Origin: Mycolicibacterium mucogenicum DSM 44124
GTDB lineage: Bacteria; Actinomycetota; Actinomycetes; Mycobacteriales; Mycobacteriaceae
Length of the DNA: 64,000 nt
Direction: 5' to 3'
NCBI RefSeq assembly: GCF_005670685.2
Contig: NZ_CP062008.1
Location: forward strand, 1,550,001 to 1,614,000
Position 1 is the first letter of the stretch. The number at the start of each line of letters is the position of its first letter. The notes beneath the pieces are model-generated. The model ran no database searches. It saw only the letters and a program-made list of their open reading frames with translations, and was not told the origin of the DNA. Shown piece by piece: positions 14,568 to 25,183 of the stretch. The translations under genes and the position numbers were made by a program.

Positions 14568-15055
14568 CCGAGAAGCGGATCATCGAGCAGCGCGGGCTCT
14601 GGTACGAGGAGTTCCAGCCGGGCGTCATCTACCAGCACCGGCCCGGCCGCACCATCACCGAAGCCGACAACGTCCTGTTCACCACGCTGACCATGAACAC
14701 GCAGGCGCTGCATCTGGACGCCGCGTTCTCCGACGCGTTGCCGCCGTTCCATGCGCGGCTGGTGAATTCGATGTTCACGCTGTCCACGCTCGTCGGGCTG
14801 TCGGTCGCCCAGCTGACGCAGGGCACGATCGTCGGAAACCTCGGTTTCTCCGACATCGCTTTCCCCAGGCCGCTTTTCCACGGCGACACGCTGTACGCGG
14901 AGTCCGAGGTGATCGAGAAGCGCGAGTCCAAGAGCCGGCCGGGGGAGGGCATCGTCACGTTCGCCCATACCGGTCGCAACCAGCACGGTGACATCGTCGC
15001 CACGGCGACGCGCAAGACCATGGTGCGCAAGCGTCCTGCGGAGCAGCCGTCATGA
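14564..15055 (+). CDS. MaoC-like hotdog hydratase (Rv2499c type)
   Basis: 163 residues, single MaoC/hotdog domain. N-terminal RGLWYEEFQPGVIYQHRPGRTITEADNVLFTTLTMNTQALHLD carries the D/N-x-x-x-x-H active-site layout of R-hydratases, and FPRPLFHGDTLYAESEV is the strand that closes the acyl pocket. By position between the carboxylase/dehydrogenase and the HMG-CoA lyase, it may hydrate 3-methylglutaconyl-CoA, the one step otherwise missing from the operon; that is inference. Starts with GTG overlapping the fadE19 stop by 4 bases. Confidence 0.82.
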   Translation: MTEKRIIEQRGLWYEEFQPGVIYQHRPGRTITEADNVLFTTLTMNTQALHLDAAFSDALPPFHARLVNSMFTLSTLVGLSVAQLTQGTIVGNLGFSDIAFPRPLFHGDTLYAESEVIEKRESKSRPGEGIVTFAHTGRNQHGDIVATATRKTMVRKRPAEQPS

Positions 15056-15858
15056 GCTTGACTGCGCCGGGCCCGGGCTGGCTGTTCTGCCCGGCGGACC
15101 GTCCTGAGCGGTTCGAAAAGGCCGCCGCCGCAGCCGATGTGGTGATCCTCGACGTGGAAGACGGCTGCGCCGCGAAGGACCGGCCGGCGGCTCGCCAGGC
15201 GTTGATCGACACCCCGCTGGACCCGGCGCGCACGGTGGTGCGGCTGAACCCGTCGGACACCGCTGATCATCCGCTGGACCTGGAAGCGCTGGCGAAGACG
15301 CCGTACACCACGGTGATGCTCGCGAAAACCGAGTCAGCCGAACAAGTTCGGGCACTGGCGCCGCTCGACGTGGTGGTGCTGGTGGAGACGCCGCTCGGCG
15401 CGCTCGCCGTCACCGATACCGCACGGGTCGACAACACGTACGCCGTCATGTGGGGCGCCGAGGACCTGTTCGCGGTGCTCGGCGGCACCGCCAACCGCTG
15501 GCCCGACGGCAGCTACCGCGATGTCGCCAAGCACGTCCGATCACAGTCGTTGTTGGCGGCCAAGGCTTTCGGCAAACTCGCGCTGGACTCGGTGTACCTG
15601 GACATCAAGAACCTCGACGGCCTGCGGGCCGAGGTCGACGACGCCGTGGCCGTCGGTTTCGACGCCAAGGTGGCCATCCACCCGACCCAGGTCGCGGTCA
15701 TCCGGAACGGCTACGCGCCGACCGAGAAGGAGATCGCCTGGGCGCGTGCGGTACTCGATGCCGCGACCCGCGAGCGTGGCGTGTTCCAGTACGACGGTCT
15801 CATGGTCGACATGCCGGTGCTGCGCCGCGCCGAGCGGATCGTCGCCCTGGCGCCGTAA
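15052..15858 (+). CDS. citE: CitE-like beta-hydroxyacyl-CoA lyase
   Basis: 268 residues, HpcH/HpaI TIM-barrel. WLFCPADRPERFEKAAAAADVVILDVEDGCA holds the metal/phosphate binding entry and the acidic DVED; VETPLGAL and WGAEDLFAVLGG hold the Mg-binding Glu and Asp; KVAIHPTQV closes the barrel. No citrate lyase alpha/gamma subunits are nearby. From memory, the M. tuberculosis orthologue Rv2498c cleaves (R)-HMG-CoA and (S)-citramalyl-CoA, linking leucine and itaconate breakdown, which fits this operon exactly. Last gene of the operon, 4-base overlap with the MaoC gene, and convergent with the M23 gene (2 bases apart). Confidence 0.9.
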   Translation: MSLTAPGPGWLFCPADRPERFEKAAAAADVVILDVEDGCAAKDRPAARQALIDTPLDPARTVVRLNPSDTADHPLDLEALAKTPYTTVMLAKTESAEQVRALAPLDVVVLVETPLGALAVTDTARVDNTYAVMWGAEDLFAVLGGTANRWPDGSYRDVAKHVRSQSLLAAKAFGKLALDSVYLDIKNLDGLRAEVDDAVAVGFDAKVAIHPTQVAVIRNGYAPTEKEIAWARAVLDAATRERGVFQYDGLMVDMPVLRRAERIVALAP

Positions 15859-15860
15859 GA

Positions 15861-16757
15861 TCAGCCCAGATACGGCCCGGGGTCGACGCGTCCGGCGAAA
15901 CCGTTCCCGAAGTCGGGGCGCAGCGGCAGGACTTCGAAGTGCAGGTGGGGGCCGTCAGCGTCACCGGTCTGACCCGTATGCCCGATGAGCTGGCCCTTGG
16001 TCACGTGCTGGCCCTTGTTGATGACCGTGTCGCTCAGATGCGCATAGCCGGTGTACACATTGCTGTTCTTGATGAGAATGCAGATGCCGGCCGGCGTGGT
16101 CATCCATGGATGGTTCTGGCCCCACCCTTCGAACTCGATGACGCCGTCGCCGGCCGCGTAGACGGGCGTACCCGGTGACGCAGCCAGGTCGATACCGTTG
16201 TGCCCGTTCTGCCCGTACTTCCGGTAGAAGTCGGGGCGTGCGCCGAAGCCTTGATTCACATTCACCGCGTCGAGTGGCCAACGGAGCCCGGCGGATTGGG
16301 CAGCGGGCGCCGGGCTGCCGGCCTCCGGCTTGACTGCGCCGCAGTCGGCTGTCACGTCGTTCAGGGTGCCGGTCTCGATGTCGACATCGGCGACGTAGTT
16401 GTTGTCGGACGTCCGGTACCAGAGGTTGTCCCAGCCGCCGTTGGGGATGTTGAAACTGAAGAAGCCCTTGACCGCCTGGCCGCGCTTGGAGCACACCAGA
16501 GTGACCTTGTCGCCGGGGTTGTACCAACCGTTCTGCTGCGCGCTCAGACTGGCGTCGGACATGCGCTGCGTGCGGGCTTTCACCGTGGCAACGGGGTCGG
16601 CATGAGCGGGTGTAGCGAAGATCAGCGACGGCAGCGCGAGTCCGGCGACCACTCCGCACGTCAGTTTGCTGAATAGCCGTGATGGTGTCGATGAGGTCTT
16701 GCCAGTCTGGCTGGGAGTCGCCAAATATCCGGCAGCAACGTCTTTCTGGCAGCTCAT
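15861..16757 (-). CDS. Secreted M23 (LytM-type) peptidoglycan endopeptidase
   Basis: 298 residues from the ATG at 16757, behind GAGGAA. Long n-region of about 30 residues, hydrophobic core KLTCGVVAGLALPSLIFATP and AHA-D cleavage near residue 53. Mature protein: an SH3-like or novel binding domain (about residues 60-150: WYNPGDKVTLVCSKRGQAVKGFF, two Cys) then M23 domain with zinc ligands His and Asp in GHNGIDLAASPGTPVYA and the HLHFE motif near the end. It should cleave cross-link peptides outside the membrane. Not present at this place in M. tuberculosis, where citE and bkdA are adjacent. Its upstream DNA matches that of the kinase gene. Confidence 0.88.
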   Translation of the reverse strand: MSCQKDVAAGYLATPSQTGKTSSTPSRLFSKLTCGVVAGLALPSLIFATPAHADPVATVKARTQRMSDASLSAQQNGWYNPGDKVTLVCSKRGQAVKGFFSFNIPNGGWDNLWYRTSDNNYVADVDIETGTLNDVTADCGAVKPEAGSPAPAAQSAGLRWPLDAVNVNQGFGARPDFYRKYGQNGHNGIDLAASPGTPVYAAGDGVIEFEGWGQNHPWMTTPAGICILIKNSNVYTGYAHLSDTVINKGQHVTKGQLIGHTGQTGDADGPHLHFEVLPLRPDFGNGFAGRVDPGPYLG

Positions 16758-16798
16758 CGATTCCTCACTTCGGACATTAGAACTTTGCTGGTGGCAAT

Positions 16799-16878
16799 GT
16801 TCTAGCACGCCTGGATCGTCGGTGCTGGCAAAGTGGAGGAGTTATGGGTGAACGTCGAATCAAATTCGTACGTTCGGG
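16799..16878 (-). promoter_or_regulatory. Promoter cassette copy A (upstream of M23 gene)
   Basis: On the minus strand: distal box CCCGAACGTACGAATT (16878-16863), then GCGTGCTAGAAC starting at 16810, whose TAGAAC (16804-16799) is a plausible -10. The start codon follows 42 bases after the -10 end. No good -35 precedes TAGAAC, so an activator at the distal box is likely. The same two blocks with identical spacing occur upstream of the kinase gene. Confidence 0.6.
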
Positions 16879-16913
16879 GGACGGCGGCAGGCCCGCTGGG
16901 CGGCAGTGACGGC

Positions 16914-17591
16914 TTACAGGTCCTCGACGCTGAGGATGCCGTCTTGCACGGCACGGGCGACGAGTTGGGCCTTGGTGGCCGCCGGCCGCCCCGCGGCGGC
17001 GTACTTGGCGCGGACACGTTGCAAGTGGGTCCGGACGGTGGTCGGGGCGAGATGTAACCGCTTGGCGACGATGTCCTTGCTCTCGGTCTGGAACCAGGCC
17101 TTGAGCACTTCGCGTTCGCGCTGGGTGAGTCCGGGCCGGCCGGAGTCGGTGTCCGAGCAGATGGCCGCGGCCATGCGGGGGCCGACGTACGGCTCGTGGG
17201 TGCTGGCCGCGCGGATGGCCTCGATGAGGTGGCCCTGGCCTTCGCTCTTGGCCAGATAGGTGACCACCCCGATGGCCAGGCACCGCAGGATGACCTCGGC
17301 GTTCTCGAGGTGCGAGTAGACGATCACCGCGTGTCCCGCGTCCACGATGGCGGCGACCGCATCGAAATCAGGCTGGCGACTGCGCAGTTCGAGGTCCAGG
17401 ATGACCGCGGCCAGCTGGTGGTCAGCCTTGGGGTAGACGGCCAGGAACGATTCGGCGTCGAGGTGGTCGGATGCGACGCGGATGGGTGGATCGGCCTGAG
17501 CGCACCATGCCGAGACGCCGGTGTGGATGACGTCGTGGTCATCGACAACGGCGATGGCCAGGGGCTCAGATCGGTTGGCCGGCGCGGACAT
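16914..17591 (-). CDS. NarL/LuxR-type response regulator
   Basis: 225 residues from the ATG at 17591. Receiver domain: acidic pocket in AVVDDHD, phospho-acceptor Asp in VILDLELRS, Thr/Ser-equivalent in VIVYSHLE and Lys in YLAKSEGQ. C-terminal LuxR helix-turn-helix LTQREREVLKAWFQTESKDIVAKRLHLAPTTVRTHLQRVRAKY. Cytoplasmic, DNA-binding when phosphorylated by the partner kinase. Its start overlaps the kinase 3' end by 26 bases, so the two are co-translated. Receiver has an atypical insertion between the Asp and the next strand (RSRQPDFDAVAAIVDAGHA). A likely target box is described at 16863-16878 and 20005-20020. Confidence 0.88.
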   Translation of the reverse strand: MSAPANRSEPLAIAVVDDHDVIHTGVSAWCAQADPPIRVASDHLDAESFLAVYPKADHQLAAVILDLELRSRQPDFDAVAAIVDAGHAVIVYSHLENAEVILRCLAIGVVTYLAKSEGQGHLIEAIRAASTHEPYVGPRMAAAICSDTDSGRPGLTQREREVLKAWFQTESKDIVAKRLHLAPTTVRTHLQRVRAKYAAAGRPAATKAQLVARAVQDGILSVEDL

Positions 17592-19812
17592 GTTCGGTCG
17601 ATCTTTCTGGGAGTGGGTGGCGCACGGTGATCCACACCGTGTCATCGAGGGTGGTCAGGTCGAATTCATCTTCGTCGTCGACACTGGATTTCGTCGGCAA
17701 ATCGGCGTGCTGCGCGCGCTGACACATGACGCTGAGTTCGACTGCGGCCGATTCGGCCGTGACGGTGATGCGGGCCGGTGACGCGGCCGCCTGGAGAACC
17801 TGGTCGACGAGCCGGGCCAGTCGGCGGGCGGTGGGCACATCCATGGCCGGCAGCGTGCCCTGGACGTCCACGGAAATGGCGAGGCCGCGATTCTGGGCCG
17901 CGTCGATGCGTGGGCGTAATTCGCGGAGCAGGACGTGCTCGAAGCTCGCGGACTGGTCGAAAAGGGTACGCAGCCGCTGGTATTCGAGTTGTGCGCGGCG
18001 CCGCGTCTCGGCGTCGACCGGTTTTCCGTCCGCGAGGGTGCACAGCAGCGGCTGGATGGTGGCGGCGAGGTCCGCGTAGCGGCGGTCGTATTCCTCCTGC
18101 ACGGCGTCGGCGATGTGTGCCGCGGCGGTCAGGCGCATGTGACTCTCGGTCTCGGCGGAAGCGGCTGCGGCAGAACGCCGGATCATGTCAGCTACGACCA
18201 GGGCGCACAGTTGGGCGACGAGCACACTCGCCGTGTCGTATCCGAGGTCGACGACGGTGTGGACCGACGGATTCCGGATGATCGCGTAGATGGCGGGAAC
18301 GACCCAGCACCACACCAGAACGCCCACGGCGTAGCTGAGCCGCACGCTGAGCAGCAGCGGCAGCACACACCAGCCGATCGCGCCTTCGGCCCACTGCCAC
18401 CGGGGGTCGAGGTCGTTGATCGGCATCGAGATCGACTGCACCAGAGCCACAATGACGAGCGCCATGATGCCGAAACGTGCCCGGGGATAGGTCCGGCCCA
18501 TCACCCGGGGGATCGCCGACAGCGCCGCTGCCGTCGTCACGACGATGAGGGTCCATTGCAGATACGGGTACGCCGCGAACCTCAGGGATGCGGGCACCGT
18601 CACCAGCAGGTTCGCCAGCCCGTAGGCAACCAGCGCCAGTCCGTATCCCATGTGTGCCCGCTCGATGAGCCGCTCCGGGTCAGGCGCTGGGCCGGCATTG
18701 GCCGGTATTGCCGTGGGCCAACACAACTCGACCGTGGTGCCCTGCCCGGGCTGCGTGATGATCTCTGCGACGCCGCCGAGCTGCTGCATGCGGGCGATGA
18801 TCGAGTCGGCGATGCCGTGTCCCCGCGTCGGTCGGGTGGGATCGAATCCGCGCCCGTCGTCGGTGATCTGGATTCGCCCGAGCTGCACGGTGATGGTGAC
18901 CGCGGCGGCGCCGGAATGCCGGTCGACGTTGGTGAGGGCCTCGCGCGCGGCGGCCGCGATGGGCGCCGCCGTCGCCCCGTCCACCCACATCGCCGAGACA
19001 CCGGCATAGCTCACGGGCGTCGTGGTGTGGGCGGCGTGATCACGCAGGGCGGCAACGAGATCGGCCGGCGGCGCGGGGGCGTGGGACGTCTCGGTGAACA
19101 CGCGAAGGTCGCGGCGCGCCTGGGCGGCGACACGCTCGGGCGACAACGCGGCCCCGGTCCCCACCATCAGCAGGGTGGAGGCGACGGTGTCATGTAGCAG
19201 CCGCGTCTGCTCGCGGTCGTAATCGCGCACCGCGGCGTTGACTTTCTGGCGGAGCTCGACGGCGAGCCGCTCGGCGCGCGCCGCATCGACTTTCTCGGCC
19301 ACGCGCACCGTCAAGATGCGGATCAACGTCGACGCCACCCACAGCAAGGCGAAGTAGTAGACGTTGACCCACTGGTCGGTGTCGTGCACACCGCCGACCG
19401 GCGCCGCGCCGGCCGCGACCGCGGCCACGACGCCCGCGGCCATCGCCGCGTTCAGTAGCGGTTCGAACACCGTGAAGCTCGCGATGGCCGTACCGCCGAT
19501 CGCGATCGGCGCGCAGGTCGGCGGACACACCTGGTCGTCGGCTGCCGCGAGGGGGAGGACCAGGCAGGCGGCGATCGTGACGGCGTAGTCGATCGCGATG
19601 ATGCGCGGCGTCGCGGAGCGAGTCAGCAGCCGGTACAGCGACCAGGCGCCCGCCAGGCCGGCGAAGGCGACGCCGGCCAGGCTGATGCGCGGCGCCGAGA
19701 CCAGCACCACGGCGTACACCACCAATGCCCCGCCGTGCCGCATGAACAGGCTGATGAGCATCGTGTGCGCGAGGAAGTTGCGACGTGCTGCGCCTGTGCC
19801 GGTGTCGAACAT
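17566..19812 (-). CDS. Two-lobed membrane histidine kinase
   Basis: 748 residues, about twice the size of a normal NarL-type sensor. Lobe 1: about five membrane helices (residues 18-165), a HisKA_3-like helix REQTRLLHDTVASTLLMVG with the phospho-His near 207, and a HATPase domain with N box EALTNVDRHSGA, G1 DDGRGFDP and G2 GHGIADS. Lobe 2: a second membrane block (about 390-560) and a second cytoplasmic helical pair (QEEYDRRYADLAATIQPLL) plus a remnant ATPase-like fold lacking His, N and G boxes. Acidic stretch SVDDEDEFD near the C-terminus. Lobe 2 may be a pseudokinase regulator. Start at ATG 19812 is uncertain: an in-frame upstream ATG at 19899 is cut off by a TGA. Confidence 0.82.
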   Translation of the reverse strand: MFDTGTGAARRNFLAHTMLISLFMRHGGALVVYAVVLVSAPRISLAGVAFAGLAGAWSLYRLLTRSATPRIIAIDYAVTIAACLVLPLAAADDQVCPPTCAPIAIGGTAIASFTVFEPLLNAAMAAGVVAAVAAGAAPVGGVHDTDQWVNVYYFALLWVASTLIRILTVRVAEKVDAARAERLAVELRQKVNAAVRDYDREQTRLLHDTVASTLLMVGTGAALSPERVAAQARRDLRVFTETSHAPAPPADLVAALRDHAAHTTTPVSYAGVSAMWVDGATAAPIAAAAREALTNVDRHSGAAAVTITVQLGRIQITDDGRGFDPTRPTRGHGIADSIIARMQQLGGVAEIITQPGQGTTVELCWPTAIPANAGPAPDPERLIERAHMGYGLALVAYGLANLLVTVPASLRFAAYPYLQWTLIVVTTAAALSAIPRVMGRTYPRARFGIMALVIVALVQSISMPINDLDPRWQWAEGAIGWCVLPLLLSVRLSYAVGVLVWCWVVPAIYAIIRNPSVHTVVDLGYDTASVLVAQLCALVVADMIRRSAAAASAETESHMRLTAAAHIADAVQEEYDRRYADLAATIQPLLCTLADGKPVDAETRRRAQLEYQRLRTLFDQSASFEHVLLRELRPRIDAAQNRGLAISVDVQGTLPAMDVPTARRLARLVDQVLQAAASPARITVTAESAAVELSVMCQRAQHADLPTKSSVDDEDEFDLTTLDDTVWITVRHPLPERSTEHVRAGQPI

Positions 19813-19836
19813 GATGAGACTGACGTACGCGTGTGG

Positions 19837-19899
19837 TCAGGGGGCGGGCACGGATGACGCTCGGGCGACGTTGGGGCCGGCGCGGTTCGGACGTCTCAT
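19837..19899 (-). CDS. Leader ORF of 20 codons ahead of the kinase gene
   Basis: ATG at 19899 sits at exactly the same distance from cassette B as the M23 start codon does from cassette A, with the flanking bases conserved (GAAG-GAG-AA-CGATGAG pattern). It reads MRRPNRAGPNVARASSVPAP and stops at TGA (19837-19839). It is in frame with the kinase, whose ATG lies 8 codons after the stop. It may be a true leader peptide or the former kinase N-terminus after a nonsense change. Confidence 0.4.
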   Translation of the reverse strand: MRRPNRAGPNVARASSVPAP

Positions 19900-19940
19900 C
19901 GGTTTCTCGCTTCTGGCACTGCCACGTTGATGATGCGATG

Positions 19941-20020
19941 GTTTTAGCACGCGGCAACGACAGACTCCGGGCCGATTCGCGTGTCACCAGCGCAAATAAC
20001 AATGAATTCATACGTTCGGG
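19941..20020 (-). promoter_or_regulatory. Promoter cassette copy B (upstream of kinase-regulator operon)
   Basis: Distal box CCCGAACGTATGAATT (20020-20005) and GCGTGCTAAAAC starting at 19952, with TAAAAC as -10. The start-to-start distance of the two blocks (68 bases) is identical to copy A. The 56 bases ending in GCGTGC align ungapped between copies with 39 matches. Confidence 0.6.
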
Positions 20021-20288
20021 CTACAAGTTGGCCGTATTGCCGCCGACTGTGCCGGCTGGCCCGACACGTCTTCAGTCTGTTACCTGCGATAACCGCGGCC
20101 GGATGGCCTTCGAGCGCATAATGGCGGTGATGCCCCAGCACTGCGGCGAGCAGAGCGGATCATCCGACTGGTGCCACACCCCGGCATCGGCCGGCGACCC
20201 TCACCACCTGAGGGGTTGCCCTGGTCGCCACCGCGCTGAGCTTCTCGCGGACTGACGGCCGAACATGCCGTCACCGAAAGGAGGCGGT

Positions 20289-21386
20289 ATGGCTGACGTG
20301 ACGGTCCTCGGCCTGGACAACTGGGTGGACCTTGAACCCGTGCAACTCGTCGCGCCCGACGGCGCGGCCACCTCCGACGTGCGCTATCGCCGCGACCTGC
20401 CGCCCGAAACGCTGGGCTGGCTGTACGAGGAGATGGTTGTCACCCGCGACCTCGACGTCGAATTCGTGAATCTGCAGCGGCAGGGTGAACTCGCGCTGTT
20501 CGCCTCGTGCCGCGGCCAGGAAGCCGCACAGGTGGGCGCGGCAGCCTGTCTGCGCAAGACCGACTGGCTGTTCCCGCAGTACCGGGAACTCGGCGCCCTG
20601 CTGGTTCGCGGCATCACGCCGGCTCAGATCAGCGCGGTGTGGCGGGGCCGCTGGCACGGTGGCCTCGGATTCACCGAAAAACACTGTGCGCCATTGTCGA
20701 TCGATATCGGCTCACATGGCCTGCACGCGGTCGGCGCGGCGATGGCGGCGCAGCGGCTCGGGGAGGACTCGGTGACCGTGGCGTTCATCGGCGATGGCGG
20801 CACGTCCGAAGGTGACATGCACGAAGCGCTCAACTTCGCGGCCGTCACGTCGGCGCCGTGTGTGTTCTTCGTCCAGAACAATCAGTGGGCCATCTCGGTA
20901 CCGGTGCGCCATCAGCAGGCGGGACCGTCGATCGCGCACCGCGCCATCGGCTACGGCATGCCCGGCATCCGGGTCGACGGCAACGACGTGCTGGCCTGCT
21001 ACGCGGTGATGTCCGAGGCGGCGCAGCGCGCCCGCGGGGGCGACGGGCCGACGCTGATCGAGGCCGTCACCTACCGGATGGGGCCGCACACCACGTCCGA
21101 TGATCCGACCCGCTACCGCGACCCGGATGAGCTGAAGCACTGGGAGGCACGCGATCCCATCACGCGCTACCGGACGTACCTGGAGCAGACCGGGGTGTGG
21201 ACGCCCCGGCTGCAGCAGCACGTCGAGAACCGCTCCCGGCGGCTCCGCGCCGAACTGCGCGAGACGGTGCTGACGGCGCCGGATTTCGACGTCGCGGACA
21301 TGTTCGACAACGTCTACGCCGACATCACACCCGAGCTGGCCCGGCAGCGTGACGCGTTGCTGGCCGAATTGGATTGGGAGGGTTGA
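20289..21386 (+). CDS. bkdA: Branched-chain keto-acid dehydrogenase E1 alpha subunit
   Basis: 365 residues from the ATG at 20289, behind a perfect AAAGGAGG; the upstream GTG-type start at 20265 is rejected. Thiamine diphosphate motif GDGGTSEGDMHEALNFAAV ... NN, entry loop SIDIGSHGLHAVGAA and E1-alpha C-terminus RTYLEQTGVW. With BkdB it decarboxylates 2-keto acids from Leu, Ile and Val and transfers the acyl group to lipoyl E2. First gene of the bkdABC operon, one base before bkdB. In M. tuberculosis this is Rv2497c, first annotated as pdhA. Confidence 0.92.
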   Translation: MADVTVLGLDNWVDLEPVQLVAPDGAATSDVRYRRDLPPETLGWLYEEMVVTRDLDVEFVNLQRQGELALFASCRGQEAAQVGAAACLRKTDWLFPQYRELGALLVRGITPAQISAVWRGRWHGGLGFTEKHCAPLSIDIGSHGLHAVGAAMAAQRLGEDSVTVAFIGDGGTSEGDMHEALNFAAVTSAPCVFFVQNNQWAISVPVRHQQAGPSIAHRAIGYGMPGIRVDGNDVLACYAVMSEAAQRARGGDGPTLIEAVTYRMGPHTTSDDPTRYRDPDELKHWEARDPITRYRTYLEQTGVWTPRLQQHVENRSRRLRAELRETVLTAPDFDVADMFDNVYADITPELARQRDALLAELDWEG

Positions 21387-24401: not shown

Positions 24402-24517
24402 CTCAGCCTATGGCTTGTGTTTCGACTCACGTGAGTCAAAACCTTTACCCGAGGTCGTATCTGCGAAACAACTGTGTGATTCCTTTGGCTGTGCATGTTG
24501 AGAGGCGTTCGGAGTTC

Positions 24518-25183
24518 ATGTTGAAGCGTTTTGCTGTGGTTGCTGCTGTGGGCATGTTGCTCCCGTTCGGGGCAGCGACCGCTGCGTACGCCGACCCCGC
24601 GCCCGCCGGTGACGAGGGCCCGCCGCCGGACACCGGCATCGTGGCCTCGGAAGAACCGGCGACGGTCACGACGCCCGACGGCTGGACTCTCACCGTGGTG
24701 GCCAAGAATGAGACCGAACTGCCCGTCGCACCACTCACGACCGCGGTCAGCTCGCGTGAATACCTGGTGGGCGGCACGTTCACCGGGACGGTGACGGGCA
24801 AGGGCAAGACCACCCTCAACGGCGGCACACTCGAGGCCGGCTACCAGATCGGCTGCGGCATCGAGCTGGGCCAGGTGCGTCTGGTCGGGTCGATCGGTAT
24901 CGCCACGTCGGGGTCGACGCTGGCCGGCCTGCTGCCCACGGGCGTGAGCGTCCCGATGTCGGGCACCGTGGAAATCCACCCGAAGCCGGGCACCGTGACC
25001 CAGGTGCCCGTCGACAAGAAGTCCTTCAAGTCGGCCCCGGTGCGCATCACGCTCAAGGACACGCACGTCAAGGTCGACGGTTGCGTCGGCCAGTCGTTCC
25101 TGCGGTCGTACGCCGTGCTGACCAGCTCCACCACCGACACCGACGACATCGTCGCCTACTACGGCGTCACGAAGTCCGTCTGA
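24518..25183 (+). CDS. MspA-family porin-like secreted protein
   Basis: 221 residues from the ATG at 24518. Signal peptide MLKRFAVVAAVGMLLPFG ending AYA-DPAP. The mature part aligns in pattern with MspA: WTLTVVAKNET, SREYLVGGTFTGTVTG, LEAGYQIGCGIELGQV and C-terminal VGQSFLRSYAVLTSSTTDTDD...YYG (compare the R-P/S-A-x-L-x-x-S-T-x-D end of MspA). MspA is an octameric outer-membrane pore for small hydrophilic solutes. Here two Cys (GCG and GCV) may form a disulfide, unlike MspA. The start has GGAG only three bases away, with GAGGCG further up. Call is family-level. Confidence 0.75.
   Translation: MLKRFAVVAAVGMLLPFGAATAAYADPAPAGDEGPPPDTGIVASEEPATVTTPDGWTLTVVAKNETELPVAPLTTAVSSREYLVGGTFTGTVTGKGKTTLNGGTLEAGYQIGCGIELGQVRLVGSIGIATSGSTLAGLLPTGVSVPMSGTVEIHPKPGTVTQVPVDKKSFKSAPVRITLKDTHVKVDGCVGQSFLRSYAVLTSSTTDTDDIVAYYGVTKSV

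Follow-up and report, generated by a model that had tools for sequence, protein, structure and literature searches.

A NarL-type response regulator of a soil-type mycobacterium has its putative binding site before two neighbouring promoters, and we propose, with a probability of about 0.72, that it binds this box and activates both its own kinase-regulator operon and the gene for a secreted SH3b-M23 endopeptidase next door. The kinase-regulator pair would probably switch on itself and the M23 enzyme together, because the same two-part control sequence is found at both and is repeated before similar genes in relatives. Judged from sequence comparison, the regulatory layout appears real and recurring and the proposed two-component circuit well supported. 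In the circuit as we picture it, the membrane kinase would respond to a signal by phosphorylating the regulator, which would then bind the box GTNNNYCGAACGNAYGAAT approximately 75-80 bp upstream of the transcription start and activate two promoters whose common core, CGTGCTA and a poor -10, is weak. Activation of the kinase-regulator operon would amount to positive autoregulation, and the second target would be the endopeptidase gene, whose product may cut peptidoglycan outside the membrane, with the wall of either the producing cell or a neighbour as its target.

Two promoters with a shared layout

The window analysed here, 64,000 nucleotides in all, corresponds to positions 1550001-1614000 in a genome of 6.1 Mb. 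It holds a minus-strand block of three genes, encoding the M23 endopeptidase (15861..16757), the NarL/LuxR-type regulator (16914..17591) and the sensor kinase (17566..19812), which is flanked by the plus-strand genes of a citE-like protein (15052-15858) on one side and an E1-alpha subunit (20265-21386) on the other. An MspA-family porin gene is located at 24410-25183, 4.6 kb from the kinase start.

Alignment of the two upstream regions, together with a genome scan, delimits a candidate regulator box before the M23 gene (GTCCCCCGAACGTACGAATT, 16863..16882, minus strand) and a second before the kinase operon (GTAGCCCGAACGTATGAATT, 20005..20024, minus strand). An earlier note on this DNA had described the pair in a 16-base form, and we recovered it as described, with 15 of 16 bases identical between 16863-16878 and 20005-20020. 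The remaining geometry was likewise reproduced: at both promoters 68 bases separate the start of the box from the start of GCGTGCTA(G/A)AAC and 124 bp lie between the box start and the end of an ATG, while the proximal blocks agree at 39/56 positions and the diverged middle at 15/52, which is the chance level. The promoter-proximal element that begins at this 68-base distance reads GCGTGCTAGAAC before the M23 gene (16799..16810, minus strand) and GCGTGCTAAAAC before the kinase operon (19941..19952, minus strand), and in each case a gap of 41 bases separates it from the ATG. A GT four bases upstream of each box was absent from the earlier description.

On the kinase side the 124-bp distance holds, but the ATG in question opens a 20-codon leader ORF (19837..19899, minus strand; A of the ATG at 19899, TGA at 19839-19837) and the kinase itself starts at 19812. 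The leader ORF is preceded by a ribosome-site-like sequence and its start and stop are kept in 4/4 loci, comprising the window and three orthologues. A conserved peptide product is weakly indicated, as conservation among the four loci is confined to the first 8 residues. We also considered the leader ATG as the true kinase start by way of read-through; this was rejected on the length from leader stop to kinase start, which differs by +1 base in L065 and -1 base in L066, two of these orthologues.

Both blocks are short, and nothing else favours a chance similarity of the two promoter regions. Random 56-mers drawn from the window reached 39 matches to the M23 proximal block in 3 of 200,000 cases, with a maximum of 56 matches, meaning that the draws include the M23 block itself. 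In the 6.1 Mb genome, GCGTGCTANAAC occurs exactly at the two window promoters only, as does the 20-letter box GTCNNCCGAACGTAYGAATT when up to two mismatches are allowed; for the 16-letter box, a tolerance of 2 mismatches adds one match, at 652049. This rarity and the recurrence of the elements in other species rule chance out, and we regard it as having a vanishingly small probability. The extended box GTNNNYCGAACGNAYGAAT is also found exactly at 2311890, with 2 mismatches against the GTM form. This third box-like site (2311890-2311908) spans the start of a gene for a siderophore-interacting protein, and the same gene carries a site in the related genome G429, so that coding conservation is probably its explanation.

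The element GCGTGCTAGAAC at 16799..16810 probably contains the -10 region, either as TAGAAC or as AACATT 3 bases on. In Mycobacterium smegmatis the -10 follows a TANNNT rule (PMC6448022), from which TARAAC departs, making it a poor -10. In another reading CGTGCTANAAC would be a further site bound by this regulator or by a different one, with the real -10 lying beyond it. The element does resemble part of the box (CGTGCTARAA as against CGTAYGAA), and by eye an ANNNT is seen 3 bases beyond TARAAC in the M23 and kinase promoters and in that of a hydrolase gene in G429; however, TGCTARAAC is shaped like an extended -10 and the 41 bases to the ATG fit a short leader, and we consider a second site clearly the less likely of the two, with a substantial minority chance of being right.

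Whichever -10 serves, the box would lie approximately 75-80 bp upstream of the likely transcription start, which would suit an activator contacting polymerase from upstream. The regulator could instead repress both promoters through the box, with the signal de-repressing M23. The sign of control is not fixed by sequence, and in several relatives the box is in the opposite orientation or lies past the regulator stop. Nonetheless, a box so far upstream would be unusual for a repressor and a poor core promoter is what would be expected of an activated one, and we find repression unlikely.

Kinase, regulator and peptidase

The sensor histidine kinase (748 aa) was assigned from a Pfam HATPase_c match and alignment, and it is built of two modules. 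The first comprises an N-terminal membrane part, an HDTVAST phospho-acceptor motif and an ATPase; the second has another membrane part and a kinase-like part without a phospho-acceptor histidine. In the kinase alignment the phospho-acceptor H is present in 34/34 rows with a residue there, and the second module of the window kinase has an A at the place aligned with it. Profile comparison of the two halves gave a probability of 32 percent (E 4.7e-4), a weak result that is consistent with duplication. Relatives of the kinase, taken as a group, align across both halves.

The regulator gene overlaps the end of the kinase gene, and an in-frame ATG 18 codons upstream makes its start codon uncertain. 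The predicted protein ends in a LuxR-type (GerE) helix-turn-helix scoring 39.3 bits against a Pfam cut-off of 23.5, and this part is strongly conserved in 33 aligned sequences, window included. Its Response_reg match spans the whole model at 30.1 bits, just below the cut-off of 30.2. An OmpR-type winged helix was not found in the regulator, for which the Pfam matches are GerE, Response_reg and a sub-cut-off Sigma70_r4_2.

The product of the M23 gene is a predicted secreted peptidoglycan endopeptidase with a signal sequence, an SH3b-like domain at approximately residues 50-140 and an M23 domain at approximately 155-297. With GAGG upstream and the signal sequence downstream, the ATG at 16757 appears to be the genuine start codon. 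The M23 assignment is clear from profile and model alike: Pfam Peptidase_M23 scores 89.3 bits (cut-off 28.7), the closest solved relative by profile against the PDB is zoocin A (1.5e-50), and for the predicted structure (mean pLDDT 81) zoocin A ranks 2 by fold among the best 50 of 341 fold matches. Among the HxxxD and HxH zinc ligands, D190, H271 and H273 are invariant in 31 aligned sequences and H186 nearly so. The SH3b assignment of the N-terminal domain is a weak one, resting on a weak profile match to the SH3b protein 8b2h in the PDB (5.1e-7), and an SH3 protein is absent from the best 50 of the 341 fold matches. This domain is common to other predicted secreted proteins, several of which are CHAP hydrolases.

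Conservation and distribution of the box

Among the relatives found, those with names are Mycobacterium and Mycolicibacterium strains. Three loci are orthologous: L064 from Mycobacterium sp. ST-F2 (kinase 89 percent identical), L065 from Mycolicibacterium sp. CBMA 226 (84 percent) and L066 from Mycolicibacterium sp. lyk4-40-TYG-92 (84 percent; its genome is G429). All three keep the kinase-operon box at 20/20 bases and the leader ORF, and the proximal element is GCGTGCTAMAAC in the window and in each of them; L065 and L066 have kept both blocks while the sequence separating them has diverged. An M23 relative was not found in the 18-kb loci of the three orthologues, where the stop codons of regulator and citE either overlap or are separated by a few bases; the window has a clean extra segment of 1,055 bp in this place (15859..16913, from regulator stop to citE stop) containing the box, the promoter and the M23 gene. 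Gain of this segment in the window lineage would be the simplest explanation, since L064, the closest orthologue, is also without it. The earlier note had set the conservation of the boxes in gene-keeping relatives as a test in advance, and it applies to one half only: the kinase promoter is kept in 3/3 orthologues, but these have no M23 gene beside it.

The box follows the two-component system inside the genus. Taking a kinase match at E up to 1e-30 as the definition of kinase-bearing, 27/198 genus genomes qualify. The extended box GTNNNYCGAACGNAYGAAT is exact in 18/198 genus genomes, 11/27 with the kinase and 7/171 without, and the reversed pattern in 0/198 (Fisher 6.7e-7; 3.0e-6 with the own genome left out), although this comparison, like the counts given below for 29 kinase loci (up to 3 mismatches) and for 30 genomes (up to 2 mismatches), is partly circular, because kinase loci contributed to the longer pattern. 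The exact extended box is absent from 16/27 kinase-bearing genus genomes. The core GAACGTANGAA, derived from the window only, is free of this circularity and gave 5 matches in 28 kinase loci with the own locus and orthologue excluded (two of the five matching loci, L011 and L012, look closely related), as against a mean of 0.1 and a maximum of 1 in 60 replicates of Markov sequences. Allowing up to 3 mismatches, 25 sites were found in 29 kinase loci (535.6 kb; a few loci share a genome), where 200 permuted patterns averaged 0.34 with at most 5 and the reversed pattern gave 1; 10/29 loci have a site no more than 450 bp from an end of a kinase or regulator match.

In whole genomes, with up to 2 mismatches, 37 sites were found in 30 genomes (the 27 kinase-bearing plus G073, G189 and G011), 34 of them in 18/27 kinase-bearing genomes and none with the reversed pattern. 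The GTM form with up to 3 mismatches gave 5, 8, 11, 11 and 15 sites in five kinase-bearing genomes and 2 in one kinase-less genome, as against 0-1 per genome for the reversed pattern; chance will account for some of the sites found. In G073, one of the 7 box-bearing genomes without the kinase, a regulator homologue lies approximately 1 kb from the box. A box that is a genus-wide feature independent of the system is excluded inside the genus by 11/27 versus 7/171. Outside it the link fails: among 251 family genomes the exact box was found in 0/6 kinase-bearing genomes of other genera. The connection between box and adjacent system drawn in the earlier note therefore appears to hold inside the genus only.

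These distributions bear on a further reading, in which the kinase promoter was duplicated, a copy coming with the M23 gene to its place behind the regulator, and the box is bound by another regulator or forms part of a sigma-specific promoter. The 39/56 identities of the proximal blocks do resemble common descent, the three orthologues lack the M23 segment, and the exact box is found in 19/244 kinase-less family genomes. This reading sits poorly, however, with a middle at chance level between two kept blocks, with boxes that lack the proximal block at kinase and regulator genes of distant species, and with a box that follows the kinase inside the genus. We judge it improbable, even more so than repression, and retain binding by the neighbouring regulator as the preferred one.

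Genes adjoining the sites include those of the kinase and regulator, an Ig/cadherin-repeat protein, a PGRS-like protein whose Pfam match is below the cut-off, and an esterase, as well as WXG100 protein, VWA, PP2C and kinase-like genes. VWA, PP2C, kinase-like, WXG100, FtsK/SpoIIIE and DUF7937 genes are found close to boxes or to relatives of the system at three loci, L131, L134 and L158. At eight distant loci (L125, L128, L129, L130, L133, L137, L138 and L139) a box lies 25-92 bp past the regulator match end, in most of them just after the regulator stop codon. Large predicted secreted proteins are encoded downstream of boxes at L236, L237, L239, L240 and L121. Of these, the L236 protein (as L103) was domain-tested for Ig/cadherin repeats in its first 450 residues, the L240 protein (as L108) has a PGRS match that falls below cut-off, and the proteins of L237, L239 and L121 were judged by their N-termini. 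One genome, G149, has three copies of the system (L120, L121 and L122), with one kinase match in separate pieces.

Wall hydrolases recur among the genes behind boxes. In 21 M23-related loci examined, a box with up to 4 mismatches lies within 600 bp upstream in 3/7 from kinase-bearing genomes (the own gene, an M23 gene of G121 and a CHAP gene of G149) and in 0/14 from kinase-less genomes. Three loci (L070, L073 and L074) were matched by the C-terminal domain alone, so that the 600-bp range misses the promoter; with these excluded the counts are 3/6 and 0/12. The G429 hydrolase has an SH3b part that is 77 percent identical and a one-mismatch site upstream; its CHAP match of 21.1 bits is below the cut-off of 26, and we hence call it CHAP-like. 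No box was found at a second G429 hydrolase, one G121 CHAP gene, a G055 gene (within 600 bp) and a broken-looking G149 fragment (L259). Together G121, G149 and G429 have five intact genes for SH3b hydrolases, two of which are without a box. The G043 hydrolase has none within 600 bp and a 3-mismatch site farther upstream. In G428, the genome of L064, an SH3b-domain relative was not found at E up to 1e-8.

The two-block spacing that the earlier note had described survives in relatives as a property of some promoters. Among 87 unique sites with up to 3 mismatches in the fetched loci, 7 have an exact CGTGCTA within approximately 140 bases downstream, and all 7 have it at 67-69: the two window promoters and the three kinase orthologues, to which are added the hydrolase of G429, at 69, and a gene of G121, at 67, with a product predicted from its N-terminus to be secreted. 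The spacing thus recurs before two non-kinase genes in two other kinase-bearing species, but a fixed 68-bp layout for all boxes is ruled out by the 80/87 sites without an exact CGTGCTA, and the two-block layout belongs to a subset of promoters. With one mismatch allowed in CGTGCTA there are 19 matches, 9 of them at 66-69, and in G428 a kinase paralogue is preceded by a one-mismatch copy that a count by eye places at 67. From the observed frequency of CGTGCTA, 0.0034 spaced cases would be expected by chance in 80 sites; the two outside the kinase orthologue group have a Poisson probability of 5.8e-6, with a one-base tolerance that was chosen afterwards.

Relation to known systems and significance

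Circuits in which a two-component system drives both itself and a wall hydrolase are of a familiar kind. In Firmicutes, WalRK (VicRK) exerts two-component control over secreted wall hydrolases via a box, and VicRK reportedly regulates Spr1875. WalR is an OmpR-type regulator, whereas the window regulator has a LuxR-type helix-turn-helix. MtrAB of mycobacteria acts on wall hydrolase genes and is also of the OmpR type; it is known from across the genus, in contrast to the window kinase type, present in 27/198 sampled genus genomes. A bacteriolytic M23 endopeptidase is known from Streptococcus zooepidemicus in zoocin A; its M23 domain and that of the window enzyme are alike by sequence and fold, and the window enzyme differs in its N-terminal SH3b-like domain. 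Zoocin A reportedly has an immunity factor, zif (cited in PMC8269130). In MacRS of Streptomyces coelicolor, membrane and lipoprotein genes are controlled by a NarL-type regulator for which a consensus has been validated (PMC9739842). The likeness lies in the NarL-type regulator and in MacR targets being surface proteins, and MacS is the best NCBIfam match of the window kinase at 76.7 bits, far under the cut-off of 300; the window kinase differs in carrying a second membrane module.

A description of the window two-component system or of its box was not found in the open-licence literature, an absence that is weak as subscription papers were outside the search. The present analysis would offer a specific DNA site and a set of targets for a two-component system without description in the literature searched, and would connect a signal with secreted wall hydrolases in mycobacteria of the environment. 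More broadly, and with somewhat less than even confidence, we put forward that an undescribed mycobacterial two-component family, with a tandem-module kinase, a LuxR-type regulator and a box of 19-20 bp, may, depending on the species, run envelope or competition regulons comprising SH3b-M23 and CHAP hydrolases, giant surface proteins of the Ig/cadherin-repeat and PGRS-like kinds, and WXG100, FtsK and VWA-PP2C-kinase clusters, which hydrolases would join by means of a ready-made box-promoter cassette. The arrangement in the window suggests that its hydrolase gene entered the regulon in this way, as a compact unit of box, promoter and gene.
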